In this document: piece after piece, positions 7,914 through 62,439 of the stretch
How the letters are laid out: the number at the start of each line of letters is the position of its first letter
How positions within the stretch are numbered: the first letter of the stretch is position 1
DNA from: Pempheris klunzingeri
Taxonomy: Eukaryota > Chordata > Actinopteri > Acropomatiformes > Pempheridae
Reading direction: 5' to 3'
Length of the DNA stretch: 64,000 nt
Assembly (NCBI RefSeq): GCF_042242105.1
Contig: NC_092020.1
Location: 25,010,842 to 25,074,841, forward strand
Made by a program: the position numbers and the translations under genes
Notes under the pieces: model-generated
What the model was told of the DNA's origin: nothing
The model's database searches: none
The model's input: only the letters and a program-made list of their open reading frames with translations

Positions 7914-10900
7914 TAAGTCCATTAACTGATTCAAAAAAACCCAACTGGCAACTTTTTGATAACTCTTAATAAATAATAATATATAATAAATAATGTTTTT
8001 ACTGTAAAATCATTTCCTGGTTGCAGCTTCTCTTTTATTTTATATTTTCAGGTGTTTTTAATAATGTGGAGCTTTGGACACAATGAGCATTGTGATGGAG
8101 TCATTGAGACGCCATTTCAACAAAACAAAACGATCGATGGATCGATGGATCGATGGAGAAAATAATCATCAGCTGCAATTTGATACTAAGTAGTTGAAAA
8201 TGAGCTCCAACCAACTCCAACAGTGAAATTTTCCGTGAACGACGAGGAATAAGAATCTAATGTTAGAATATATAATAGTACAACAGTCACAGGGGACGTT
8301 TAATGTTTTCAATGCAGACAACGTTTACTTGTAGCCGAGTATTTTTACAGTGTGGTATTAGTATTAGTACTACTAGGACCTGAACACATACACTGTTGCC
8401 CATAAAGTTGGAATAATTCTTCAATACCCCCAATTTAGTTAAAGCCTGAATACACAGTTTGCAAAGGTTCATTGTGGTTTAAGTTCCACTGTGACGTGTT
8501 TGGAAGAGTTTGATCAATAAAGTTGAGAAGATATAAACTTTATTTATCAAGAATAAATCACATTGCCACAATCATTTCATGAGAAGAGGAAAAAAAAATT
8601 GGATTCCAACTTTATGGGTACTTGCCTCAGACAGATTATGTTACAGCCTGTTTCACAGCTGCAGATTGAGGCGATCTACTGGACCAATTCCAAAACTAGT
8701 AAAACTCACCAAACTCCATTGACACAAACAGTCATTTTTTTTCTCTCTGAACACACGAGTGGCTGGTCTACCGCTGCCTTGTTTGTGTTATTGCATGCTA
8801 CACAAATATTGTGTTGCATCCGAATTAATCCTTTAAAACATCAAGTCACTCCACAACACAAACAAACTAACTGATTGAGACAGCGGTACACGAACGACTA
8901 CTGTGTAAAATCCCTGTTTTTGTGAATGTAGTCTGGTGTGTGTGCAGAGAGCGATATAACGGCTGTTTGTGGTTAAACCAAAAGGATCTTCCAGGTCTCT
9001 CTCTGTAGGGATCCTTTCCATGATGCTGTCACACACTTAGAATAACAATCTGAGCCCCAAACAACTGCCCAAAGGATTATATTACAGCCACTGTAGCGAC
9101 CTACTGACCACGTTTTAAAAAAATACAGATGTTATCTTTTAACCTACAATTAATTTAACTTATTATTAACATATTATTAACTCTTAAATATGACTTTATT
9201 ATTACTATTTCTTCATATTAACAAACTCTGCTGCTTTGATCTTCTAATGTTGTTTCATATTTGTGTGTGAACGTGACGTGAACGTGTGATCTTGTGATAT
9301 TGATGTGGTTCATCTTCGTGTATGAAACGTTCCCATTAGACGGTTTGAGGTTTATATGTTTATCTGTCAGCCAGATTAAGTATAAAATCAGCTCCACCGT
9401 TCTGCTTCTGTAGTTTGACTCTGAAGTTTCTCCGCAGAGAATTTTTTATTCCCGGATCTATTTCCTGTTTTAAATTTTCAGGTGGAGCTCTGCAGACTCT
9501 TATTGTTTCTACATACAGCGGCAGGAAACAGGAAATGAGCAGAAACAGGAAGACGGGTGGAGAGTCGCGACGGCGCAGGTCTGAGAATTCACATCTTTCA
9601 TATTTCATCCTGCCTGACTGGGGTTTTTTTTTAATTTATAATCTAATGTGTAATATTTGAGGCCAAACTGATTCTTATTTTTTTTTAAAAAAGCCTAATT
9701 TTAAAGAAGCTGGTGAGCGTTTGGGGGGTGGCAGAGAAACTCACCCTCTTCCAGGTGAGGACGGGTGTGGGTACACCCACCGCCTCGCAGCTCAGGTACA
9801 CCTGAGAGCCGCTCACGTTGTAGACCTCACCTGGTGAGGTGACGATGACCGGAGCTGCAGACAGACAGACGGACGGACGGATGAGTCAGTAACATTAAAC
9901 ATAATCAACATGAAGTTTGGCTGCAGAGAATCAAGCTGAAACAGGTCACAGGACTCCGTCAGTAAAATTAAAGAAAATTAACATGAGGTTTGGTTGGAGG
10001 GAGGTTTTTCCACGTCAGGGTGAAACAGGACGAAACAGGTCGCAGGAATCTGTCAGCTAAATAAAAGATAATTGATATGAAGTTTGGTTGCAGAGAAATT
10101 TCCACATTAGTCCCGAGCAGGACGAAACAGGTCGCAGGAATCCATCGGAGACAGTAAATCCTCGTTGACCTCAGAGGAATTCTGTTTGCTCTGAGCGTGC
10201 TCAGTGTGGGTTTTCATGTAGAAAGGAATTCGGTGTTTTCAGAGGGATGAAAGTGGATTATCATCACTCACTGTCTGTTACTGTCAGAGGGTTGGGCAGA
10301 AACATGTCCAGCTTCATTTCAACCCCAAAAACACACAAATATACATAAATGCAGGATATGTGTGAAAATACACAACATTCACTGATTATTGATGATTAAT
10401 ACTAATAAAACAAGATGTAAACTTTAATTATGTTTGGTACAAACATTAAAACTGTGTCAAACACAGAAGATAATTAAAGAGTTTTGTTGTTTCCTCATAA
10501 ATTAAATCAAATTATTTGTGTTGTCAATCTGAGAAAAATCAACTTTATTAGTTTTCTAGAGCAGTTATTACATTATTAATGGTAAAGAGTCTAAAGGATT
10601 ATTTGTTCGTCTGAGTTTGAGATTAAAATAAAAACATTTATATAATAATAATAAAACATTTATAAAATAAAACATTTATAAAATAAAACATTTATATTGC
10701 AGTCTGTTAGCCTAGCTTAGCACAAAGACTGGAGGTCAGGTAGCTGTAGCTCATCGATAACCTGTAGCACACCTGTATGTCCTAGACCCACCTGTGTATG
10801 TCAGTCTCACCTATAGGTAATGAGTGTCTCAGTCCCACCTGTAGCTCACTTGAGTGTCTCAGTCCCACCTGTAGGTCACCTGAGTGTCTCAGTCCCACCT

Positions 10901-11556
10901 GTAGGTCACCTGAGTGTCTCAGTCCCACCTGTAGCTCACCTGAGTGTCTCAGTCTCACCTGTAGGTCACCTGAGTGTCTCAGTCCCACCTGTAGGTCACC
11001 TGAGTGTCTCAGTCCCACCTGTAGCTCACCTGAGTGTCTCAGTCTCACCTGTAGGTCACCTGAGTGTCTCAGTCTCACCTGTAGGTCACCTGAGTGTCTC
11101 AGACTCACCTGAGGCGCAGCGGCCCTTGTTGCGGACGGTGATTGGCTCTTTGCCCTCAGCCTCAGCGGTCAGACTGGCGCTCTTCAGAGCGCAGCCGCTC
11201 TTGTACGTCACTCCGTCGGTGCCGCAGACCTCGTAGTTGCTCTTACAGCCGCAGACTCCCAGTTTGTTCTTCTTGTCCTCGTCGCTTTTGACGCACTCCA
11301 GTCCGGAGCCGCAGCGGCGCGCTGCCGCGCGGCGCCCGCCGCACAGCTCTCCCTCCGCGGCGGCGCACACGGAGCAGCAGCCGCAGGAGTCCAGCACCGA
11401 GCCCGCCGCGCAGCCCTCCCCGGGGAGAGGAGCGCACTGGGTCGGGTCACACGGTTCGCAGCCCGGAACCGCTGAGACACGGACCGAGAGCACCGGGAGG
11501 ACCGAGAGCAGCGACAGAACCGGGACCAGAGCCAGAAGGACGCTGAAGGACTTCAT
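3880..11556 (-). CDS. igfbp7: Insulin-like growth factor-binding protein 7
   Basis: Secreted low-affinity IGF/activin-binding matrix protein. Five coding exons on the minus strand: 11109-11556, 9745-9854, 7052-7159, 6124-6250 and 3880-3902. They total 816 nt and 271 residues (human about 282). Order: signal peptide (about 1-28); IGFBP N-domain with the cysteine-dense SCGCCSVC and GELCGG; Kazal-like segment (CGCKSNYEVCGTDGVTYKS); then a C-terminal Ig domain (VYLSCEAVGVPTPVLTW ... GSYECHATNSQGEAS). The start ATG at 11556-11554 directly precedes a hydrophobic leader. The open frame of exon 4 runs on to 6053, but a donor at 6123/6122 in phase with a tiny last exon gives a terminus V-T-K-E-D-E-L, comparable in position to human ...GEGAEL. 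Exon 1 is very GC/CpG-rich, unlike its surroundings. Convergent with polr2b as in other vertebrates. Confidence 0.94.
3903..6123 (-). other. igfbp7 intron 4, T-rich with an ATT microsatellite
   Basis: No exon is supported here. Positions 4260-4900 are a long T-rich stretch made of loosely repeated 'ttttatatctt' / 'tttgtatc' words, which produces spurious Phe/Tyr-rich reading frames. An (ATT)n run occupies about 5264-5300. Confidence 0.7.
5264..5300. repeat. (ATT)n microsatellite
   Basis: About ten ATT units with one interruption, inside igfbp7 intron 4. Confidence 0.9.
6251..7051 (-). other. igfbp7 intron 3
   Basis: No exon seen. Contains a repeat-like 'taatttatatagcacttttcatac' fragment split around 6338-6364 of the type common in fish interspersed repeats, A-rich DNA at 6840-6960 and a (GT)n run at about 7015-7034 next to the exon 3 donor. 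Confidence 0.6.
7877..7912. repeat. (AAT)n microsatellite
   Basis: About twelve AAT units in igfbp7 intron 2. Confidence 0.9.
8655..9075. mobile_element. Fold-back (palindromic) interspersed repeat, copy 1
   Basis: Left arm carries 'ccaaactccattgac' near 8709 and the right arm its inverse around 8915-8945 ('ctgtttttgtgaatg ... agtctggtg'). Outer sequence includes 'aaccaaaaggatcttccagg' around 8975. The same modules recur at 13165, 14030, 14990, 26460, 39070 and 40430-40985. No transposase is encoded, so the element is non-autonomous if mobile. Boundaries are approximate. Confidence 0.6.
10821..11110. repeat. 30-bp minisatellite abutting the igfbp7 exon-1 splice donor
   Basis: About 9.7 tandem copies of a 30-bp unit, exactly in register (two units per 60 bases), containing 'gagtgtctcagtcccacctg' then 'taggtcacct'. 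The array ends at the donor of igfbp7 exon 1 (exon edge 11109). Read on the minus strand each unit contains CAG-GTGRGA, itself a good 5' splice-site match. See findings. Confidence 0.95.
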
Positions 11557-28500: not shown

Positions 28501-29780
28501 CTGACAACAAGACAAACAAACACCTGTCAGTATTTCAGGTAAACAGGTGTGAGAGACCATGTCATTATTTTTTAAAGGATTCTGGGAAATGAAGGAGACT
28601 CTGGCTGAGAGTTGAATCAGTATTAGTATCAGAAGTAGTAGTAGTAGTAGTACTATTAGTAGTTGTAGTGTCTCACCTGAGCATGCTCAGTCTGGTGGTC
28701 AGCGTCAGGTCTGGATCGGATCCGTCCGTCCTGTTCTGACCGATCAAACTTCTGTCCCGAGACACAAAACAGACAAAACACACAAAAACCAGTGAGACCA
28801 GTAGAACCAGAGTGTTGTGGACAGTCATGTGACTTTTTGCAGCTTTAATGAGTCTTTAAATTAAATCGGTTTTAATCTGGTTAAAGTCAGTGATCCACCT
28901 GTCAAGTGTGGCTCCGCCCACCACCACAATCCTTGCGACGTGATTGGACGCTGCTGTCGCACTCAACAATGACGTTTTAGGTTTGTTCACTCACTCGCTA
29001 CTTCCTGTTTAACACCTATTTACTTCCTGTTTACTCTGCTGTTTACTTCCTGTTTACTCTGCTGTTTACTCATGTTGCATCATCGCTAGCTGCTGGGTCA
29101 CATGACCTTTTGTTCTCTTCGTCACGCATGCAGCAGTGCATTGTGGGAATCTTTGAGGGCAACAAACAGCGGAGACGTTTACACACAATGTCGAGCAAGA
29201 TGTGGTGAACAGGAAGTGACGTCACTGTTAAAGGTGTGATGACATCATCACCTGAGGTCCGATAGCAGAGCAGCCAGCCTGTCGGGGGCGGAGCTCAGCG
29301 TCTCCATGACGACATCATGAGGGGCTCTATGTCTCTGCTCTGGGGTCAAAGGTTGAATCGTCAGCTGGTTTTCTACTTCCTGTTTCAGAGACACAGAAAG
29401 GTACAGCTACAAATACTACAGTCAGTACTACAAATACTACAGATAATATACTAATACTACAGTCAGTACTACAGTTAATACACTAATACTACAGTTAGTA
29501 CTACCAATACCAATATTAGTACTACAAATACTACAGTAATACACTAATACTACAGTTAGTGTATGTGTGTATATATATATATATATATACACGTATACAA
29601 ATAAAATCAAGATATATAAAGATCTACATATAGCACAAATATATTTTAAAAAACCGAATGAGGTAACTTCACAGTGTACTTTGTAAATTTCCCCGTCGTG
29701 GGACTAATAAAGAAATATCTTATCTTAAATTATCTCATCTTATCTTATGGGGTTACAGCTGTATAAATGCAATAAAGAAA

Positions 29781-33700: not shown

Positions 33701-35246
33701 ATGAGCAGCACTGTAAGTTTTCTTCTTCCTCTCTCAGTTTGTGTCTTGTGTTTGATTTAAAAGAAAACTAAAGTTGAACAGACACAAAGTAAAAATATTA
33801 AAGTTCTGTCACGCAGGATCTGACCTGCTATGAAATTAAATATTGATTATGTGCAGCAGCAAAACGGCTGTGATCTAATGAGTGTGTGCTGTGCCATGCT
33901 GTGTGTGTTCAGGCTCAGAGGAAGAGGAGGACCACAGGAAGTCCTCTGGTGTCCAGACCGAGCACAAAGGCCAACAGACGGGCTAACGTCAGGAGGACGG
34001 CTAACGCCACCAGGGCGGCTGGCGCAATCAGAGCAGCTAACAGGACGGCTAGCAGGACGGCTAGCAGGACAGCTAACGTTAGCAGGACGTCTGATGTGGA
34101 CCCTGCCCCCCCCACAGAGACCATCGATGTGATGGACAACACTGAGGACGGTCAGTACTGATCCATACTCTCTACAGCTATTAATTAGCATCATCACTAC
34201 CTGTAATCAATAATCATGCCGGTGAACCCTGTGACTGTTTAACTGGTCACACTGTAAGTCACATGACTTAATACTTGATGTCACATCCTGCGCTGCTGTT
34301 GGTCAGACCTGCTGAGATAGATCTCTGATCAATAATCAATAGCTGATGTGTGTTCAGGTGTGGAGGAGGTGGTGGATCTGACCTGTGAGGGATCAGAAGC
34401 TGCTGTGGTCGACCTGACAAACAACGACTCAGTACTGGTAACGACACATTAATACCCAGAAATACACACACTAGTACACACTAATGCACAACAATACACA
34501 AAAACACACACACACACACACACTCTAATACACTACTGATACTGATCAAACGTCTCTTCTTCTGCTGTTTCTGTTTCTTCCTCTGCTCCTGTGATGATCC
34601 AGCTGGTGGACGAAGGTAAGACTTTATTCCGTCTGCGTTAATTGTTGAAATAAAGTTTCATTAAAGGAACAGTCCAACATTTCTCTGGACGTCCTCCACC
34701 AGGTCCACGGAACAGGAGAGTCACAGCAGCGGAGAGTTACGTCGTTAGCAGTGATGAAGACGAGGACACGCCCCCCGCCCTAAACGCGGCAATAGTATCC
34801 TCTTTACAGGCGGACAGCTCCTCCAGGTAATAGAAATGACAGCCAGGTAATAGACTGATCCAAGCTAACACTAGCTTCAAATCATAGCCAGGTAATAGAC
34901 AGATCCCCGATCACATCATCAGTAGAACTCAGTCTCTCTCTCTCTCTGTGTCTCAGGTCGACTCCGGGGACGATCAGCTGTCCTGTCTGTCTGGACTCGT
35001 ACTCTGAGGTGATACTCAAACACACCTGTTACACACCTGGCCAGCAGGTCCCGTGTGTCCTGTGTTCTGATTGGCTGGTTGTTGTTTCCCTCACAGATCG
35101 TAGAAAGCGGCCGATTGGTCGTTTCCACTAAATGTGGCCACGTGTTCTGCAGCCAGTGTCTGAGAGACGCTCTGACGTCATCACACACCTGTCCTACCTG
35201 CAGGAAGAGACTGACCCACCGCCAGTACCACCCCCTTTACATCTGA
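33701..35246 (+). CDS. rnf4: E3 ubiquitin ligase RNF4 (SUMO-targeted)
   Basis: Nuclear RING ligase that ubiquitinates poly-SUMOylated proteins. Exons 33701-33712, 33913-34150, 34358-34437, 34603-34615 (a 13-nt microexon), 34703-34826, 34957-35008 and 35097-35246, giving 669 nt and 222 residues (human 190). SUMO-interaction motifs: EEVVDLT (about 86-92) and AVVDLT (about 97-102), followed by NNDSV as in mammals. RING from CPVCLDSY (164) through TKCGHVFCSQCLRD and CPTCRKRL, ending RQYHPLYI, the conserved C-terminus needed for dimerisation. The N-terminal exon is unusually rich in Arg-Thr-Ala repeats, made of gctaac/gctagc words like those in the upstream intron. A partial copy of the last exon follows the stop. 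Confidence 0.96.
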
Positions 35247-35397
35247 CATCACTCTGACATCATCACACACCTGTCCTACCTGCAGGAAGAGACTGACCCA
35301 CCGCCAGCACCACCCCCTCTACATCTGACATCACTCTGACATCATCAATCACCTGACCCCCACCCAGTACCACCCCCTCTACACCTGACATCACACA
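35171..35397 (+). repeat. Tandem copies of the rnf4 terminal coding segment
   Basis: The 82-bp segment spanning the last zinc-ligand pair to past the stop is repeated: copy 1 (about 35171-35250) is coding, copy 2 (about 35251-35333) is nearly identical, and copy 3 (about 35334-35395) is shortened and diverged. Only copy 1 is in the frame; the others are 3' UTR. Confidence 0.93.
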
Positions 35398-49202: not shown

Positions 49203-50204
49203 TCAACCAGAGTGCTGAGTGAGTTCATGGTCGGAGGCGGAGCTTGTCTGACGCTCCACCACCCGCTGGGCCTTACAGGCAGCCATCTTGCTCTGGATGT
49301 CCCTCTTCCTCTCGAAGTAGTCGACGAGCGGCGGCTCCGTCAGCAGCGACGCCAGCACCTGCTCGAAGGTGATCGACCAATCAACATCCAGCACGCTGCC
49401 CCGCCTCTGCTCGCTGCTGCCAATCAGCACGGTGTCGTCTGCAATGTCCTCGCACTGCAGAGAGCCGGAGCTCACCACCGAGTACGACGACACCGACGTG
49501 TCGTCTTTGGTTTCCTCGTCGGACGTCTGCAGAGCCGGCGGCTCCAGCTGAGCGTCAGCCAGAGCCTGGCACACCTGAGACTCACCTGAGCCCCCCTCGC
49601 CGGGCCCCTCCTCTGCCTGAATGTCGGGGGGCGTGGCCTGTGCGGTGGGCGGGGGCTGCGTAGCGCCGTTGTCGTTCTTCTTGTTGCCGTTGTTGAACTT
49701 CTTGCCGACCTCTCCGATGCGCAGCAGCAGGCTGGCGACGGTGGCGATGGAGTGATAGAGCTGCTGCTCAGAGGGCTCCTCACTGAACATGTTGTACAGA
49801 GTCTTACACAAGTCTATGAACTGCTCCTACACACAGACAGGCAGAGAGAGAGAGACGGGTCAGGACTGAGAGAGAGAGATCAGTACTGAGAGAGAGAGAG
49901 ACAGGTCAGTACTGAGAGAGAGAGACAGGTCAGTACTGAGAGAGACAAAGAGAGAGAGAGAGGGAGACATGGGTCAGGACTGAGAGAGAGAGACAGGTCA
50001 GTACTGAGACAGAGAGAGAGAGACAGGTCAGTACTGAGACAGAGAGAGAGAGAGAGAGAGAGAGACAAAGAGAGATAGGTCAAGACTGAGAGAGAGAGAC
50101 AGGTCAGTACTGGGACAGAGAGAGAGAGACGGGTCAGTACTGAGAGAGAGAGAGACAAAGAGAGACAGGTCAGTACTGAGACAGAGAGAGAGAGACGGGT
50201 CAGT

Positions 50205-50253
<49 letters not shown>

Positions 50254-50350
50254 TCAGTACTGAGACAGAGAGAGAGAGACGGGTCAGTATTGAGACAGAG
50301 AGAGAGAGAGACAGGTCAGTACTGAGACAGAGAGAGAGAGACGCGTCAGT

Positions 50351-50387
<37 letters not shown>

Positions 50388-50458
50388 TCAGTACTGAGAC
50401 AGAGAGAGAGAGAGACGGGTCAGTACTGAGAGAGAGAGAGAGAGAGAGACGGGTCAGT

Positions 50459-50492
<34 letters not shown>

Positions 50493-52622
50493 GGGTCAGT
50501 ACTGAGAGAGAGAGAGACAGGCCGATACTGGGGCAGCTTAGTAATAGTAATACATTTGTGACCCTGGTCTCCTCACCTGGTTCATCCGGGGCAGGTCTTT
50601 GATGGTCTCCGTCTTAGGTTCCTTCTCTTTGGCCCACATCCTCAGGTAGTACCTGTAGTCCTTCACCTTCTCCTCTGAAACAAGAGGGTCAGAGGGGTCA
50701 GAGGGTCAGACGGTCAGAGGGTCAGAGGGGTCAGAGGGGTCAGAGGGGTCAGAGGTCAGGGGTCAGAGGGGTCACAGGTCTACTGAGTATTACTGATGTA
50801 AATATATGTATTATTTTATTGACAAACCTACACGAGGCGATAATGTAAACCAACTGCTGAAGCTAACTAGCTTAGCAGACCTCAGTAGCTTTTGAACTTC
50901 ATGTCAGCAGTAGATGGGGCATTTACCTTTCCTCTCCTCGCTGTCTACGCCTCCATCCTTCCCCTCCTCACCTGCACACAGACAAGAAACCATCTTCATC
51001 ATCACCACCACCACCACCACCATCATCACCACGGCAGTTTGTTAAACATGTTGGTTAAGTTTGAAATAAAGAGATGAAAAGTGTTTAAATCATTTGTTAG
51101 TTAAAGCGACAGACAGTTCCAGGACTTTTCCTGCTCTGATGTCCAGCATGTCACTCATCTGGCCCCCCCCCCCCACCAGTGATGTCAGGGGAGGGCGGGG
51201 CCAGAGGGGAAACATGTCAGCCTACAGAGCAGCAGCAGGTTTCCTCAAACCACAAAGACACAAACCTGACGTCACGTCCTGCTGCCCCAAACTGTCCATA
51301 TCAGACATGAAGGAAGATTCTGGAAGGAGACATCACACAAAGGAGAAAAAGAAGACGAAGAAGAAGAGGGAGGAAGTGAGGAAGAAGGAGGAGAAGAGAT
51401 CGGGCAGCATGTGAGCAAGAAAGCAAACATTAAAATCTGTAAATGAGAAGGATTTTCATGTAAATCAGTTTTATATTTGCTGGATGTTTCTATAATCCTG
51501 AATCACTGAACTTAATCAAACGTTTTCCCTCACACGATAATTTCAGACCGACTAACTCCTCTTCAGTCTGTTCATTTATTGTTTGTCCTCGTCCACGATT
51601 TATAAATCTGTGATGTCCTTGAAGGACGAAACGAACACTGACTGCAGAGATCGGCCGTGAGCAGAGCGAACAGAACGGAGGCTCAGTTTGACGTTAGGAC
51701 TTCGAAAGAACACCGCTGTAGTAGAAATACTGCAGTGAGGATGTGTTTACCTCGTGGTACGTCCTCAGTGAAGAAGTGCGTGGCCTCCAGAGCGGACTCG
51801 GCCTCCTCAGGACACAGAGCTGCGACACAGACAGACAAACAGACAGATGAAGCCTCGTGGTATTCAGTCTGGCGACCTGACCTCCAGACTGCCGCCATGT
51901 CTGGAGACGGTGCTGCTAAATCTAACGACTCGGAGCATCAGTGCGACCTGCAAATATCGCTCCCGATGTTTATCTATTTGTTCATTTTTTGGAACCCTTT
52001 ATCTATAAGGGTTTTCTCCATTTATAAAAATAAGACTATTATCATTTCAAAGTGTTTGTATGGGAAAAATAAGGAAAGCTGGAAAGAAACAAGGAGCAAA
52101 ACCAACAACAGACAGAATAAATAAAACTGAACTGTCTGCAAATCATCTATCAGCCACTATTTGGCTGTTTGGTGGCTGAGTGGTTTAGTAACAGGACTGT
52201 CATCCAGGAGAATGAGGTTAAAAACCAGTTTAAAAACAGTAAATTACACACATTTATTTCGTTATTATTATTATTTCAGTGTTTCAGGGTTTTCAGTGGT
52301 AGTTTGGTTAGGTTTAGGCACCAGAACTACTTGGTTAGGTTTAGGAAAAGATGATGGTTTGGATTAAAATAATACGTCAAATACAAATATAAAAGGCGCC
52401 CGGGTGTAAATAGCTACACTGGCTATTTACATCCAGGTGTGAATAGTGTTGTTGACGACTGACACTCAGGTGCAAACAGCATCTGGCTAAATAGAAATAA
52501 AGAATTAAAAAAAAGAGACTCCAAATGGCCAATAGGGCCAATAAAGAGCAAGACTGGACTTTCTGAAAATTGTCCATTTATCACCAAAACATTTATTATT
52601 ATTTATTAGTAATACAGCCAAA

Positions 52623-52662
<40 letters not shown>

Positions 52663-55600
52663 GGGCTGAGCTGTGTGACTGTTACCTGGTGGCAGGTGGA
52701 GCTTGTACAGCAGTTTGAGTTTCTCTGTCATGTCTCCATGATACATCCCACCTGCAGACAAATAAACACGTTTACACTGAGAGGAGACCAGCACAGAGCA
52801 GCAGAGGCCAGCACAGACCAGTATAGACCGACATAGACCGGTACAAACAAGCACAGACTAGCAGAGACTAGCACAGACCAGTATACACCAGTACAGGCCA
52901 GTAAAGACCAGTTCAGACCACCACAACCCTGATACGACACTGAATCTGAATATTTAGACCCCTGAAGAGACTAAAAGTCCGACTTACTGAGTCCGGTGAT
53001 GAATTCTTTGAAGTTGACCAGTCCGTCCTGGTTCTGGTCCAGGAGTCTGAAGAGGCGGGCCGACAGCGTGGGGCTGTGGCCTCCACAGACCCAGGGAGCG
53101 AGTGCCGTGAACAGCTGGGTGAACTGAACCGGGTCGATGCGGTACTGCTCCAGGTACGGCAGGCTGGGGTCGTGGCGCTCGGCGGCAGAGCTGCTGGAGC
53201 CCCAATAACAGCTCGTCATGTGTTTGGACTGAAACACAAGGACAGAAAGGGTTAACGTGTTTCTTCTTCTTCTTCCTCCTCCTCTTCTTCTGCTGCTTCT
53301 TCTTCTGCTTTTTTCTGCTGCTTCTGCTTTTTTTCTGCTTCCTCTTCATCTTCTTCTGCTTCATCTGCTTCTTCTGGTTCTGCTTCTTCTTCTTCTTGAC
53401 ATTATCGCTCTGTTTCACCTCTCGGGCCACACTGGGCTTCCCCAAGCCTCTGACTGGTGGAGCTTGTTGCTTGTTGCCTGTCAGAAGGACCTGCAGACAA
53501 AACTGAGGACCTAAAAACCCGCCAAACTTCTTCTGCAAGTTTCCAATTTTTTTTGGGGGGGGGGGAGACTTTCATTTATTTTAATCTAAAGATGACAAGT
53601 GTGTAAGCTGAGGCTGGACTGTGTCTGTCCTGCATATGTATTTTTTATTCTAGTGGAAAAAGATGATTTTCAGGGCTGAAAATAAAGAAAAGTCTTCAGT
53701 TCTTGCATTGGAAGTATTTTTTCTTTTTTCTGTTCCACCATTTGTGAAACCAAACCCACTCGCTGTATGTCAGGTACCATAAAGTAAAAACTTTTTGATT
53801 GTCGGCCTTTAAAAACATCAGGACATTTAAAAACTCTTTGCTCTGACCTTAAAGAGACAGTACAGCTCCTCCAGCTCCTCGATACTGAAGGCGGACTCCG
53901 TCATCATCGCTCTCACCTGCACACACACACACACACACACACAAACACAGAGCTGTAAACACTGTGTCTACATTAGCGTGTTAGCATTAGCCCGCAGCGT
54001 GCCAACGTCACCCACCACGCTCCTTTTGGCCGTGTCCTCCAGCGACTGGATGACCTTTAACCTCTGCTTGAACCTCATCTGCTCGATGACATCAGAGCGC
54101 AAACTGCCGAACTTCTGCTCAGAGAAGAAGAAAACTGAGATTACCTTAAAAACCAATAATTATTCCAGGAATTAGACTGACACACTATGGCAGAAATAAT
54201 TAGACTGAAGCTCTGGAAAATAAATTGAAATACTGCATTTCCAGGAATTAGACTGTGACACTGCAGCTACAGGAAATACACCGCAGCACCAGGACTCAGA
54301 CTGAGACTCTGCTACACCAGGAATTACACTGGGAAATCTGAGATTACCATAAAAACCAGTAACTATTCCAGTAATTAGACGGACACACTATGGCAGAAGG
54401 AATTAGACTGAAGCTCTAGAAAATAAATTGAAATACTGCATTTCCAGGAATTAGACTAAGACAGCGCAGCTCCAGGAATTAGACTGAAACGACGACATGT
54501 CCACTGAGGCAGTCTGACCTCGTACGACGACTTGATGAGGTCGAAGATGTCGATCTCAGGTGGAGGTTCGTCGCCGCTCGTCAGCAGGGCGTGCAGGTGA
54601 GGGATGGGCGGAGCCACCGTCTGTTTATTCACAACATTGTCCAGGTACCTGCACGCACACAGAACCTCGTTAGTGACGAATAAAACGGAAACGGTTTCCA
54701 GGTGACGAATCCCGTGAGACAGGAAGCACAACGCCCACCTGCCCAGGATGGTCATGGCTTCGCCCTCGTCGCTGCAGGACAGCAGGGCGTCCATGTTGTC
54801 GTGGAGCACAGCCAGCGCCACCTGCAGACAGAAACAGGAAGTAGTTTGGTCAGAGGTGAAGACTGTGCCGTCTGATGCGGACACACCTGGACAGGTAAAC
54901 AGGCGGGAAGGTAGGTGTGGTGACTCTGACCTACATCATGGCCTTAACGCCCTCGTAGAAGAAGCAGTCGACCAACTGTTAAACAGTTAACAGTTGCTCG
55001 GTAAACAGCTGATAACCAGTCGGTAGGCAGTCCATCAGTAAGCAGTTGGTAAACAGCCGGTAAACTGTTAGTAGACAGCTTGTACACTGTCAGTAAAGAG
55101 TCAGTAAACAGTCAGTAAGGTACGGTGACTCTGACCTGGACGATGACCTTGATGGCCTTGTAAAAGAAGCAGGACAACAGTCAGCAAACAGTCAGTAAAC
55201 TATCAATAATAATCAATAATCAGTTGGTAAAATCGAGAGTAAACAGTTTGTTAACAATCAGTCGACAGTAAATAAACAACTGGTTAACTGGTCAGTCAGT
55301 AAACAGTCAGCAAGATGCAGTGAATCTGACCTGGAAAATTACCTTCATGTAAAGAAACAGTCAACCAATAGGACGACAGTCAGTAAACAGGTGATTAATA
55401 TGTGGGTAACAGTTCATCAGTAAACAGTCAGTAAACGGTCAGTAAACGGTCAGTAAACAGGCTGTAAACAGGCGGTAAGGTGCGGTGACCCTGACCTGGA
55501 CGATGACCTTGATGCCCTCGAAGAAGAAGCAGTCGGCCAATGGGTCAACAGTCAGTAAACAGTCAGTAAACAGGCGCTAAACAGGCGGTAAGGTGCGGTG

Positions 55601-58600
55601 ACCCTGACCTGGAAGATGACCTTGATGCCCTCGTAGAAGAAGCAGTCGACCAGCAGGACGGCGCTGTCGAAGGGCATCACGGACAGGAAGAGCGTGAGGA
55701 ACCAGGACAGGCTGATGGTGGAGATGACGCCCAGGTCCTGCATGTGTTCGTACAGGAGGGGCAGGAAGGCTCTGGTCAGCTCCTCAAACACCCCCTGATC
55801 CACCAGAGCACCTGCAGGACAGAAGCCACGTCACACCGGGACAGACCGACACCTGAGGCCACACCTGGAGACCACTGATACGTCAGAGGTGGTGGAGGTC
55901 AGAGGTGAAGGCTGTGCTGTCTGACACACCTGGACAGACAGGTACAACTACAGTAACAGTCGGTAAACCGTCAGTAAACAGTCGATTAACAGTCGGTTAA
56001 CAGCTGATAAGGTGCGGTGACTCTGACCTGGAAGATGACTTTGGTGTCCCTTGTAAAAGAAGCAGTCAACCAATAAGGCAACAGTCGGTAACACGTCACT
56101 AAACAATTGGTTAATATTTGGTTAACAGTACATCAGTAAACAGGCAGAAAACAGTCAGTAAGGTGTAGTGAGTCTGACCTGGAAGACGACCTCAGTGTAC
56201 CTTATAAAAGAAGCAGTTGACCAATAGGACGACAGTCAGCAAACAGTCAGTAAACAGCTGGTAAATATTCGCTTAAAAGTCCATCAGTTAACAATCGGTA
56301 AACAGTCAGTAAAGTGTCATGAGTCTGACCTGGAAGACGACCTTAATGTCGACCAATAGGATGACAGTCATTAAACAGTTAGTAAACCATCAGTAAACAG
56401 TCGGTAAACATTCGATAAACCGTTGCTTAACAGTCGGTAAACCATCAGTACATAGTCAGTAAACAGTCTGTAAACAGAGGACAGGGTGGTTAATGACTGC
56501 AGGTACCTGAAGGCCTCCTGACTCAGCCTGAACACCTGAACTCATCACTGACCTACGACCCTGGTGTTGTAGTAGTCGGGCAGCATCCGCTCGCACAGCG
56601 CCACCAGCAGCCAGAAGGCCTCCTCCTCCGGACAGTAGAGCAGCAGGACGGAGGTGACGATGTTCATGGCCTGGAGGGGAAACACGACACCGTACAGTCA
56701 GTAAGTCCACTTTTATTGATACTTTATTATAATGTGAAGACTTTTTATAGGACAATTTATTGTTTTTTTAATGTCACTGAGAATCAGTTCAGTACAGAAT
56801 ATATAAGCACACTGAAATCAAGTCAAATGTATTTTATATAAATAATATTTATATTTTTATCTAGTAAAATAGTTTTGTTTTACTTATTTATCTGTTTGAC
56901 GTTTTAAATCAATTTGAATAAAGTAACCACGGCAACAGGGACCCAGCCAAAGCCTCTGAACAACGATAACAAGCTAACATCTTGTTTCCAACAGCGGGTG
57001 TCCTCCTTCAGGTCCTCATCCTCTGAACACCACAGGATGGAGACTGTGACACACAAGCTGCAGGAAGTAGACTGATCCCCACTGAGACTTTCATTATTTA
57101 TCATCATTTATTAACTGTTTACACATTAATGATCTCAGATTCAGCCGACAGCAACATGGACGTTCATTTGTTAATTTGTTCGTTAAAATATTGATTGACG
57201 TGGTTTGCTAGCTGGGCTGGTCCGTCGAATTTTATTCGCTGTTTGTCAACCTGTGTGCAGAGTTATTGACTTGAATCTTGCTAGCATGCTAGCATAACGT
57301 TAGCTTTCTAGCTAACATCCGTACCATGAACTGAGCGGACTACAAATATCTCCTGTTGCCAAGTCGTACCCGTGGTTCATCCTATTTACTGGAGCGGTGA
57401 AAGACGTTTCCATTGCATTAGAACCTTATGGGATGGTGGTGACGGTTTCAGGTATTAGCCACAATCGGAGGCCGTTAATTCCTGATAACGGACACCTTGT
57501 TGGGTATTATTATGGGTATTGGGTTTGTATTCACCTGACAGTATCCAATGCCCGGGTTGCGGTGGGCGTAGGCGGTAAGGACGCGGCGCAGCGCGGCGAT
57601 GCCCGTCTCGTTCTGGAAGGCTCGGTGCTCGGGCATCGAACGGTGAAGGTCGCGCTCGATCTCCTCGGTGGCCAACGAGCAAAGGCCCATGGCCTGCTCC
57701 ACCAGGTCGCCGTAGTAACCAGGGTGCGTCGCCATCTCGTTCTGCGCTCCTGGATGGACAGAGGGACGGGTGATCACACGGATGTTCGGTTTACCTGCTG
57801 TATGAATGAATGAGGCTACCGGAGAGCAGCAGGGAGGAACACTGACCAGAGAACAGCAGCCACAGCTCCCCTCTCAGGCGCTCTGGGATCCCGTTGAGGA
57901 CGAGTTCTCTGGTTCTGGAGGTCCGGTACATGCACACACCCCGACCGAACTCTGAGAAATGGATGTTCCACGCCTCCTCCTTCATCTTCTCCTTCATCTG
58001 CAGGAGGGAGGGGGTGAGGCGAGACATTCCTCTTACACAACAACATATCCGTTTGGGTCAACAGCTTGTTAAATCTTCGGCTCTTTTCCCGACCAGCTTC
58101 AACAAAAGGTTCAACTACTTTACGTGGTTTGTTCATGTGATCGGTGGATGTTACACAGCAACAGACAGATGGTTCATCCAGTCACCTGCCAAGTAATTTA
58201 TGAATGTGTCTGTCCCTTTCCAAACAGTGTCTACAGAACACTTCCCTCATGGCTGTGTGTAAAAAACCTCATACTCCCCAGTATCTAATGGCGTTTTTCC
58301 ATTACACAGTTTTAGCTCGACTCGCTTCGACTCGCTTCGACTCAGTTTCGTCCGTTTTCCATTACAATTGCGTACCAGCTCAACGTGGGTGGGGTAGTCA
58401 TAGCAAGGCGGGCCGAAACTCCAGTGACGTAATTTGTATGCGGCACAAACACAAACACAACTAAGGACACGTTTGGTTTGTGTGAAGCCGTTTACCTCGT
58501 TCACAGAAATAATAAAAACGCACGGTCTCTGTTTCCAGGGTTTTAAAAATGGCGGGTTTGATTCTTGTGAACGAGTCGCTCTCAGGACTCATCCAGTGAT

Positions 58601-61515
58601 GTCACTCCCTGGCCAATCAGTGGCCTGCAGTCTGTTGACGTCACATTTTCGGCTCGACTCAGATCGCTTGGAACCCCGGCCGACTAGGTACTAAAAAAAG
58701 CACCTAGTACCAGATACTATCACCTAGTGGAAAACCAAAAAGACCGAGTCGAGTCGAGTCGAGTAGAGCCGAGTAGGTGCTAGTGGAAAAGCACCATAGC
58801 AGTACTTCATGGTATATAATGGCACTCCTCTGTTTCTAACAGGACTCTGTTATCTAAAGGTACTCCTCAGTATCAAACAAACCCTAGTATTTAAGGGTAC
58901 TCTGTGGTATCAGTACTCCTCTGTATTGAACAATGCCAGTACGCGTCTGTAATGGTAGCGGTTCAGCTCTGTATGTAACAGTACTGGTAACTGGTGTCAG
59001 TGGTGGTCCTTATCAGACCCAGCTGTGTTGTGGTATGGACTTCATCTCGTGGCAGTGGGTCCCAAATCCACTGGAGTGTTTCAATAATATCTAAGAGTAT
59101 TTGTACTCCATGAGCAGTATTGGTACTCCGCAGTATCTAACAGTGCTGATCCAACTTGTAGCTAAAAGTGTTGGGACTTGAACTCACAGCCTTGGGCCCC
59201 AGGTCCTCCGGAGCGTCTCGGTGGTAGAGCTGCAGCAGGCCCTGGCTGGCTGTGGGCAGACCGGGGTGGTAATGACGCCCCCTGTGGACGGACTCAGACC
59301 CTGCAGACGAGGGCGAGGGGGCACCGGAGGACGCCTGGGGGCACAAAAACACACATCACAACAATAAAACTGAGAGTACGTCGATGTGAGGGTTCTACTT
59401 CCTGTCTGCTAACGCCACATGATCAGAACCTCAACCTGAGTGACGCACCGAGTGACCAATCAGAGACAGCGGACTGGTGTCGCCCCACGAGCTGTCGGGC
59501 GTTCGCTGCAGGAAGTCGGAGATGCGCTGGACCAGGAAGTCTCTGTCTTTGAGGTTGGCAAACAGGAAGTTCATCTTGTTCTTGGTGCTGATGGAGACGG
59601 GACACGGCAGGACGCTGCTGCTGTCTGCCTTTTCCACAATCGACACCTGAGGAGCAGAGGATGATGGGTAAAAAACTGTAGAATGAGTGACCTCGGTAAT
59701 TTATGCGACCAAAATTTCCCATGCATAAATGCAGAGAATATGAGTATATTATTATATCTCTAATATCCAACCTGTCATAATCTTTAAGGGCAATTATTCA
59801 TTGGATTCAGTGTTTAACTTTCCTCCAGCTGCAACCAGATGTTTCCAAACGGTCGTCTTTACAACGACGGCAGCTTTAATTCAAATTTTAGTCAGTGGAG
59901 TGTTCGTAAACCGACCTGGGTTCACCGACAGCCAGTTTACCTCTCTGAGGGGGATGATGAGCTGGCACAGGTCTTCTTCTCTGCTGTTGAAACAGATGTA
60001 GTTGTTGGAGATGAACAGCTGTCCGACCACGTGCATCTTGGCGAACGGCGTCCACAGCGTGCAGTCCGTGTGTCCGTCCAGACGCTCGTCCTGTGTCAGC
60101 CGGAACATCGTGCGGTACCGCTCGTTCTTCGCCCGTGCATCCAAATCCCTGCAGCGATGACACAGACATGAACAGCTGATTGGGTCAAAGGCCAACGACA
60201 GATGACACATATCTACATTTCGTCATGCATTTATTCATATCAGGAAACTGCACTCTGTTTTGTACATGCAGTCTGTCAGTCTGATCAGATGACTCCGTCA
60301 GCTTGATATTTGGTTCGTAGTTAATGAACAGAGTGAGACCTCTTGAGCGCAGAGACGTTCTTCAGTGTCTTGCAGGGTTTCGGCAGCGAGCGGTCGGCGG
60401 CAAACGCCTCGTTGTCAAGTATCTGCCGCATGGCAATGTTGGCGAGCTGCTCCATCAGCTTGAAGGTGTCGTTTATGTTAAGGAACATGGAGAAGAAATG
60501 TTCGGTGTGCCGCGTGCTGACACGGACGCTCTCCGGAAACACCAGGGTGGCGTTCTTCTCCAGCTGGGTCACCTCCGTCCACTGTACCACCAGGGTCACT
60601 GAGGGCAGTGAACAGTGAAGAGATCACAGTCGTAAAAGTATTTGAGCATTAAAATATAATCGTGAAAGAATGGCACACTGTGATTGGGTCGCCTCGGTCC
60701 GAATGGTTTTTAAGAATAACTTCTCACTAAAACCATCTAAAGACTTTATTAGCACCTTCAGGTAACAATAGAAGGACCTTCTGGTAGATATTTGTTCTTA
60801 AAGATGGCAGATTCTTTTATTTTAAAACATAAATATGACACAGCACTGACTGTATGAATGCCATAATTAAACTCTGTGATTGGCTGGTCGTACCCTCTTT
60901 GCCCAGCAGGAAGGAGTAGAAGCACAGGTGATTGACGGACAGGTAAAGCCAGCCCTGCCGCGGCACTCTGCCCTTCCAATAGCTGCAGGAGTAATAGTTC
61001 ACCAACTTCTCCTCCTCGGGCATCCCAAACAGCCTCCTCATCTTCAGCTCCGCCTCCCGAAACTTCCCACAATCCTCCTCCTGCTCCTCCCCCTGCTTCA
61101 GTCGGTTCTCCTCGGCGATGATGCCCTGCAGGAAGTGACATCATCAATGACATGATCGCGCACAAGAAAAGAGAAACGGTCGGTAAACAGGAAGTGACGT
61201 ACAGAGATCTTTCCTTTGACGAAGGTGGTGACGTCTTCATCGTTGTCAAAGATGGAGATGGTCTGCAGCAGGTTGGACTCCAGCCAATCCCAGTGCTCCG
61301 TGATCTCCTTCCTGGACGAGCCTGCAAGACACAGCTGAGGGTCAGCAAACATTACCTGGACAAACATTCAGCCAATCCCAGCGCTCCCAGTCCAGCTGCC
61401 TCACCGCAGGCGATGTTCCAGTAGATCTGAGAGTCGGCGGTCTGCAACAGGATCCTGTACGGAGCCACTCTGGCACTGGAGTCCAGAACCACATCCAGAG
61501 TCCCAACCAGGAGAC
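49203..61515 (-). CDS. tbc1d9b: TBC1 domain family member 9B (GRAM-GRAM-TBC-EF-hand), 5' end outside window
   Basis: Predicted Rab-GAP. Twenty-one exons, high to low: 61405-61515, 61203-61321, 60894-61125, 60340-60598, 59941-60148, 59449-59646, 59188-59334, 57847-57997, 57535-57749, 56553-56670, 55609-55811, 54739-54821, 54519-54648, 54016-54114, 53848-53916, 52988-53228, 52686-52751, 51751-51819, 50927-50971, 50577-50674 and 49203-49826. About 1160 residues are visible. GRAM 1 ([20 protein letters not shown]), GRAM 2 ([20 protein letters not shown]), TBC with catalytic IERDLHRS (Arg finger) and GYCQ (Gln finger), EF-hand [14 protein letters not shown], and C-tail [23 protein letters not shown]1D9 versus 9B is decided by linkage to sqstm1-mrnip. 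The N-terminal exon(s) must lie beyond 64000. Confidence 0.94.
49840..50525. repeat. (GAGA)n with interspersed 'cgggtcagtactgagagaga'
   Basis: About 690 bp in the last tbc1d9b intron: GA runs of variable length alternate with 'caggtcagtactgaga', giving units of 25-60 bp. Confidence 0.95.
50690..50780. repeat. Short tandem repeat of 'gtcagagggg'
   Basis: About nine copies of a 9-11-bp unit directly upstream (in gene sense) of the exon 50577-50674, starting within 20 bp of its acceptor. Confidence 0.9.
51820..52685 (-). other. tbc1d9b intron with (CA)n
   Basis: No exon seen. Contains a (CA)n microsatellite at about 52624-52660 and a duplicated 'ttggttaggtttaggcacca' word near 52305-52345. Confidence 0.6.
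54822..56420 (-). repeat. Array of degenerate copies of the 3' end of a tbc1d9b exon plus its donor
   Basis: The real exon end (55609-55655, encoding [14 protein letters not shown]) and its donor are repeated at about 54913-54976, 55118-55178, 55313-55375 (weak), 55478-55550, 56010-56080, 56160-56235 and 56310-56365 (shortened). Each is followed by runs of 'cagtcagtaaacagt'. The copies lie in the introns on both sides of the real exon. Most keep the GT donor, and some keep an open frame. See findings. Confidence 0.88.
56671..57534 (-). other. tbc1d9b intron
   Basis: AT-rich left half, unique right half. No exon supported. Confidence 0.5.
57998..59187 (-). other. tbc1d9b intron containing a hAT-like element
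   Basis: No exon seen. Holds the terminal-inverted-repeat element at 58288-58797. The remainder has loose 'cagtatctaacagtactcct' words (about 58795-59150). Confidence 0.55.
58288..58797. mobile_element. Non-autonomous terminal-inverted-repeat element (hAT-like)
   Basis: Left end 'atggcgtttttccattacac' then 'agctcgactcgcttcgac'. Right end is the inverse, 'gccgagtaggtgctagtgga' then 'aaagcaccat'. Subterminal repeats of 'cgactcg' / 'cgagt' flank both sides. About 510 bp with no coding capacity. Clean 8-bp target duplications were not found, so superfamily assignment is tentative. Confidence 0.65.
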
Positions 61516-62439
61516 CTGCACGCAGGGAGACAGGTAGACATGAAGACAGGTAAACCAGAAGACTTGAGCACAGGCAGGTAGATGGGTATGTGAGTTAGCT
61601 GTGGGTTGCAACTTTTTTAGCCAATATTTTGTCAAATTAGCCTTTAAAAGTTTGACGAATTAGCCGTTAGCAGCTCCCGTCTGCAGTAGAATCATGGATG
61701 TACAGACAACAGTCACTGGATTTCTGTGATACTGAAGAAAACTTAAAAATGTGATGTTTTTCAAGCAAGTTCTGAAGTGTGTTCTTTCCTGTGATTTCTA
61801 AGCTGGTTTATGGACGTTTATTCTGGACGGGCGTCAGAGAAAGTGATATCCTCTGGTAGTGTAAGTCACACTGAATTACTCGATACATATTTGACGTCTG
61901 TGAGTTCAGATTTCACTCAGTTACGACTGAGGACTGAGGCTTTTAAAGTACCTTAATGACCTGCAGGACCTGGTGGTTAGTCCAGTTCAGAAAACATGAT
62001 CCCCTGTCAGGTTAATGTTTAATGTTCCTGAGTCAGCTAAACACATAAGCATTAAAACTCAAACAGATCAGTTGATGGGTCAGAGCCGACTTCCTGTCAG
62101 CTGACTGCTGATGACATCACCGCCTCAAACTTGACAAACAGTCTGTGTTTTTCCGAGCAGTGAACTGAGGTTTTGCTCATGACTCAGGTTCAAGATCTGC
62201 AGATTAACGACAGCACCTACATGTGATTATAAAACGTGTTCAATAAGCACCAAGTTATAAACCCTGGAGGTGCACGGTCACATGTCACATGACCTCAGAT
62301 CAGCAGTGTCCACTTCCTCTCTTAGTGTGCATCCCGTCTTGTGTACAGTCAAGAGCTGCAACTAACTGAACGACCCAAAGAGATTCAGTTTACGCAGGTA
62401 AATAGAAACAAAATGTCTGATACCAAAATCCAAATCAAC

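Follow-up and report, generated by a model that had tools for sequence, protein, structure and literature searches.

How did the end of one coding exon, together with its splice donor, come to stand several times over in the introns on both sides of that exon, and what could the copies mean for splicing? The exon in question, referred to as exon E, is a functional TBC-domain exon with an open frame (55609 to 55811, minus strand) and lies within the window, that is, the 64,000-nucleotide stretch of the Pempheris klunzingeri genome analyzed here. When the peptides of exon E and of three exons next to it are joined, the product hits the RabGAP-TBC domain (Pfam PF00566) with an E-value of 7.4e-28 and, in the PDB, 8 distinct sequences of RabGAP/TBC chains. 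The minus-strand host gene is presumably of the tbc1d9b type rather than a sister gene. Two adjoining minus-strand segments are central to what follows: the last 51 nt of exon E (55609 to 55659), here called the exon edge, and the first 22 nt of the intron (55587 to 55608), which carry the real donor GTCAGG and were copied along with the edge.

Seven extra copies of the edge of exon E

Local alignment revealed that the last 51 nt of exon E and about 22 nt of intron occur seven more times on the minus strand, as copies D1 to D4 in the downstream and U1 to U3 in the upstream intron. The sequence-only reading had listed seven places of recurrence, and these match the seven aligned copies; adding the real edge gives a single repeat family with 8 members in the one assembly analyzed. 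The exon-side ends of the members lie, in plus-strand coordinates, at 54931 (D4), 55136 (D3), 55331 (D2), 55496 (D1), 55609 (E), 56028 (U3), 56179 (U2) and 56330 (U1). When only the exon part is aligned, D1 (55474 to 55546, donor at 55495) scores highest, with 73 over 55496 to 55539, and its intron part is identical to that of exon E at 22/22 positions. It is followed by D4 (54910 to 54985, donor at 54930; score 59), U3 (56008 to 56079, donor at 56027; 58) and D3 (55115 to 55179, donor at 55135; 54), which has lost part of the exon edge between TGC repeats. Lower scores were obtained for U2 (56158 to 56230, donor at 56178; 42), D2 (55312 to 55374, donor at 55330; 33), which has an internal deletion in its exon part, and U1 (56308 to 56371, donor at 56329; 28), the most degraded copy, whose outer end is set by the alignment only. 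The peptides read earlier from the copies at 55478 (D1) and 55118 (D3) are correct, as is the stop noted in the copy at 54913 (D4), which ends ATG ATG TAG|GT and thus has TAG directly before its donor.

The chance level for these exon-only scores was set by 200 first-order Markov shuffles of the region, which gave a median best score of 18 and a maximum of 32. Six of the seven copies score above all 200 shuffles, D2 by one point only, so that the similarity noticed earlier does exceed chance. U1, the exon part of which has a deletion, stays below the shuffle maximum and is accepted as a copy because it is in register with donor and spacer, not by its exon letters alone. Elsewhere, in positions 1 to 54600 of the window, the best match to the exon edge reaches a score of 25 on the minus strand and of 23 on the plus strand. 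A BLAST search of 54601 to 56700 against the whole window, with E-values up to 1e-3, returned only two outside places, both of them minisatellite matches near 29000.

Organization of the two arrays

The copies are embedded in two minus-strand arrays, a downstream array (54896 to 55586) in which D1 to D4 are interleaved with minisatellite and an upstream array (55951 to 56477) in which U1 to U3 are interleaved with the same repeat. A minisatellite had been described as separating the copies, and the analysis bears this out: an 11-bp repeat, in sense orientation CTGTTTACTGA, runs between them. Exon edge, donor and minisatellite together make up a higher-order unit, for which Tandem Repeats Finder (TRF) gave periods of 113 and 151 bp, the longer one represented by the unit of U2. 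Units cut by hand measure 90-205 bp and are 53-90% identical. The closest pair of whole units is that of E and D1 (0.90 identity), making D1 the nearest relative of exon E; the two share the 113-bp unit (TRF 55434-55652, period 113, 93% match), and the real donor at 55608 lies inside this array. If the frame of exon E is read on into the intron, it runs into a stop before D1 is reached.

In the multiple alignment, most copies start near the same exon position, after ...ACTGTY, a start which D4 does not show; in pairwise alignments, the first of the 51 bases is reached by U2 and D2 only. Outside the arrays, a further similarity was found between two minus-strand flanks, F1 (55897 to 55937), located between the upstream array and the acceptor of exon E, and F2 (54848 to 54894), located between the downstream array and the acceptor of the next exon. 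They are identical at 39/41 aligned bases with one 6-nt gap (BLAST E-value 1.2e-7).

Divergence of the copies

The copies differ from each other by 13-42% and have their own deletions and spacers. This argues against an artefact of assembly, a collapse or expansion that had been named earlier as the finding which would undo the whole observation: tandem arrays are generally hard to assemble, but a false expansion would yield near-identical copies, and we regard an artefact as very improbable.

Relative to exon E, substitutions amount to 25/110, 18/111 and 25/111 at codon positions 1, 2 and 3, respectively, and to 28/154 in the intron portion. The first two codon positions do not show the deficit of changes relative to position 3 that coding exons under selection would have, position 2 being nominally slightly lower. 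There is no sign of coding constraint on the copies, as substitutions are spread nearly evenly over codon positions and intron, and for the same reason the open frames found in some copies mean little. At the splice junction, seven columns of the alignment (AGGTCAG) are invariant, a run longer than expected (column permutation, p 0.02). This is a weak hint at most of constraint on the donors, and a case for selection on the donors from this run was judged too weak to build on.

Donor-like sites and candidate pseudo-exons

All seven copies contain AG|GTCAG, and 6/7 contain CAG|GTCAG. On an untrained vertebrate weight matrix, six copies score 7.0-7.4 bits and D4 scores 5.3, compared with 7.4 for the real donor. 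By this measure, most copy sites appear to be about as strong as the real donor. Each of the two introns around exon E holds 5 donor-like sites of at least 6.5 bits, 3/5 in each being copy donors, whereas shuffles gave 1.3 and 0.8; of 200 shuffles, only 2 and 1, respectively, attained the observed count. The 6.5-bit cut-off was picked after a scan at 7.0 bits had missed most copy donors, which print as 7.0; that first scan showed a smaller excess, the two introns having 2 and 3 sites compared with 0.9 and 0.5 in shuffles. Pairs of an acceptor and a donor 50-250 nt apart number 3 and 5 in the two introns versus 0.6 and 0.4 in shuffles. For comparison, 13 other stretches of the gene, some of which include small exons, hold 1.08 donors and 1.08 pairs per kb.

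Five of these eight pairs terminate in a copy donor, and none of the five is open in any of the three frames. Another site within copy D2 is the donor of two more pairs, in which every frame likewise contains stops; the remaining pair (55865-55929), located outside the copies, has one open frame. The best-scoring candidate pseudo-exon ending at a copy donor is predicted on the minus strand at U1 (56330 to 56467, 138 nt, stops in all frames; acceptor 8.6 and donor 7.0 bits), and a second is predicted on the same strand ending at D2 (55331 to 55461, 131 nt, stops in all frames; acceptor 7.1 and donor 7.0 bits). Apart from the U1 pair, the acceptors of the pairs score 6.1-7.1, compared with a median of 8.1 for 17 real acceptors (leave-one-out range 3.8-14.7). 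At D1, D3 and U3 there are also short candidates, 21-22 nt in length and free of stops in every frame, but their acceptors score 6.5, 3.9 and 2.8, respectively. If used in splicing, the copies would mostly give RNAs with early stops.

These features could be read as functional: the copies would then be decoys, serving as pseudo-exons or alternative donors around exon E, with their stops lowering gene output via nonsense-mediated decay. Such a role would fit the donor-like sites and acceptor-donor pairs above shuffle level in both introns as well as the invariant run at the splice junction. It would also fit a precedent in human ABCA7, where a variable number tandem repeat (VNTR) in intron 18 has a 25-bp unit, the first two bases of which are the GT of the exon 18 donor, and where splicing is reported to use a cryptic donor located one unit further downstream (PMC5954066). 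However, an excess of donors follows automatically from copying a real donor, the matrix behind it was untrained and the 6.5-bit cut-off post hoc, and all pair acceptors but that of U1 fall under the median of real ones. In ABCA7 itself, use of the cryptic donor is reported not to change with array length, whereas skipping of exon 19 does (PMC5954066). A decoy function is therefore unlikely in our view.

A more specific proposal would treat the arrays as a splicing regulator, in which the minisatellite supplies branch points, the copies supply pyrimidine-rich tracts and donors, exon E lies between poison pseudo-exons and gene output is tuned by array length. As raw counts, the upstream intron has 5 branch-point-like TACTGAC motifs derived from the minisatellite and the downstream intron has 11. 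The AG dinucleotides lend this proposal no support, because they are not depleted (35 and 32 in the two introns versus 33.2 and 31.9 expected), and we hold such regulation to be very unlikely. In their present state, the copies are most likely neutral or slightly harmful clutter.

Proposed origin of the arrays

We think it probable that a higher-order minisatellite captured the 3' edge of one tbc1d9b-type exon, was amplified, was block-duplicated into the upstream intron and then drifted as mostly neutral clutter. Growth of the 11-bp minisatellite would have come first, about 25 nt into the intron that follows exon E. The unit of edge, donor and minisatellite could then have arisen by a single tandem duplication, one endpoint of which fell in the minisatellite and the other in the exon, some 51 nt from its end. 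A single capture followed by amplification is suggested because most copies share their start in the multiple alignment; against a common breakpoint, this start rests on the multiple alignment, is lacking in D4 and is reached to base 1 in pairwise alignments by U2 and D2 only. Slippage or unequal exchange may subsequently have amplified the unit into D1 to D4, with D1, judging from its similarity to exon E, probably the most recent.

For the upstream copies, unequal exchange within the downstream array alone can be ruled out by reasoning, because it cannot put a downstream exon edge upstream. They are best explained by duplication of a block of array plus flank, since F1 and F2 are nearly identical and the array design is common to both sides; the duplication would have given rise to U1 to U3 and F1. 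This could have happened by template switching, or by a larger tandem duplication after which the first exon copy was lost; BLAST revealed no remnant of such an exon copy in the upstream intron. Two observations speak against a simple block copy. The flanks are 5% different, compared with 16% for the best upstream-downstream copy pair (D2 and U2), and thus look younger, but 2/41 is a small count. Further, upstream and downstream copies do not form separate clades in a tree that is itself weakly supported. The earlier proposal that a minisatellite expansion captured the exon edge and left decoy splice sites or pseudo-exons accordingly holds for the capture, the multiplication and the donor-like sites and pseudo-exon pairs in excess of shuffles, while the upstream copies would go back to the block duplication instead of a second capture.

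The flank similarity would equally fit a duplication that once included the whole exon, in which case the copies would be remnants of a tandem duplication of exon E, a decayed cluster of alternative exons. The copies themselves argue otherwise: they hold the last 51 nt of the exon or less, and neither exon sequence beyond these 51 nt nor the acceptor of exon E was found in any copy by BLAST, local or multiple alignment. We accordingly give this alternative a very slim chance. Returning to capture and block duplication, the copies would since have drifted as intron DNA while keeping the donor-like AG|GTCAG, and low-level mis-splicing to stop-containing RNAs could follow.

Comparison with known systems

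As in the ABCA7 VNTR, the minisatellite includes the donor of a real exon, and donor copies follow in the intron: the TRF array at 55434-55652 spans the donor at 55608, and AG|GTCAG persists in every copy. Unlike the ABCA7 repeat, which is described as a 25-bp unit on the intron side only, the unit at exon E has about 51 coding nt, is part of a diverged higher-order structure and lies on both sides of the exon. The short, regular and near-identical units typical of splice-donor minisatellites are thus not seen here, given unit lengths of 90-205 bp at 53-90% identity.

IFI6 (6-16, G1P3) is reported to have a minisatellite with multiple splice donors (Turri et al. 1995). Two downstream repeat units of IFI6 act as donors according to a further report (PMC4526556). 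Both there and at exon E, tandem repeats supply several donor sites at the end of an exon; unlike IFI6, for which donor use in RNA is reported, the array at exon E is known from its DNA sequence. De Grassi and Ciccarelli 2009 described internal tandem repeats at exon-intron boundaries of recent human paralogs in segmental duplications, which are reported to be able to create splicing changes (PMC2812944). The array at exon E is similarly a case of minisatellite growth at an exon-intron boundary that could alter splicing, and differs from those repeats in being intronic and surrounding an intact exon. In earthworm metallothionein genes, intronic minisatellite-like repeats occur together with duplications of the fourth exon, the duplicated exon being absent from the final transcript (PMC12783039). 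Repeat-rich introns and exon duplication thus meet in one gene there as well, but in the passages considered the two are not described as one unit, unlike at exon E. Among the matches listed by literature searches, none is a minisatellite that has captured a coding exon edge and lies on either side of the exon concerned.

Overall, at the level of sequence, the array at exon E appears to be of the ABCA7/IFI6 type, and its new features would be the coding sequence in the unit, the higher-order structure and the two-sided arrangement. Most plausibly, it is a neutral by-product of repeat growth that left spare, possibly usable splice sites. The locus would illustrate how a growing minisatellite can incorporate coding sequence along with a splice site and carry both into two introns, the exon itself remaining intact; splice-site copies distributed in this way would be raw material for cryptic splicing.

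Tandem arrays and splice sites across the window

Array growth is common in the window, because tandem arrays cover 14.3% of its bases (13.0% for periods of 10 or more). The survey of splice sites covered 37 sites, 18 donors and 19 acceptors, of which 16 and 17 (33) belong to the tbc1d9b-type gene; one spurious peptide match was removed, one donor peptide could not be matched, the positions of several donors are accurate only to a few bases and one donor lacks a clear GT. Three of the 37 sites have an array of period 10 or more no further than 10 bp away: two donors, that of exon E and the one at 11109, and the acceptor at 50675. Set against 13.0% coverage, this is no excess, and enrichment of arrays at splice sites was rejected. 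Because of this lack of excess, the array at exon E may be an occasional product of a minisatellite-rich genome, which could produce such exon-edge arrays now and then. A local duplicate scoring above the best of 30 shuffles was seen at 9/37 sites, five of them by 2 to 5 points only; the remaining four are the donor of exon E (95 versus 22), the donor at 11109 (49 versus 20), the acceptor at 53916 in a TG run (44 versus 28) and the acceptor at 50675 (36 versus 22).

The donor at 11109 has a 30-bp repeat phased on it and represents a cleaner example in the same window. Taken with the array at exon E, this donor-phased repeat suggests that natural ABCA7-like arrays, in which donor competition could be studied, may be present in minisatellite-rich genomes.

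Other tandem arrays in the window

Tandem arrays make up 14.3% of the window (1-64000). A 30-bp minisatellite on the minus strand (10789-11111; 10.8 copies, 92% match) has its phase set by an apparent donor at 11109 (minus), its units starting with GTGAG or GTGGG, preceded by CAG. The exon ending at this donor is apparently an IGFBP/Kazal-like first exon, an assignment made by eye. Scoring with a vertebrate donor weight matrix gave 21 donor-like sites of at least 7 bits within 409 bp at this array and the 11109 donor. The array is more similar to those of ABCA7 (intron 18 VNTR) and IFI6 (minisatellite with multiple splice donors) than are the edge copies of exon E (55609-55811, minus) in the tbc1d9b-type gene.

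The tbc1d9b-type gene also carries a 9-bp repeat (50683-50778, minus; sense CTCTGACCC) that abuts the acceptor at 50675, thus placing the polypyrimidine tract of that acceptor next to a minisatellite. GTCAG, with C at +3, is found at 5 of the 15 listed donors of this gene (window 49800-61600, minus); C at +3 is rare among human donors.

At 35170-35355 (+), an 82-bp tandem unit (2.3 copies, 95%) carries the stop codon and C-terminal coding end of a RING gene, RNF4-like as judged by eye.
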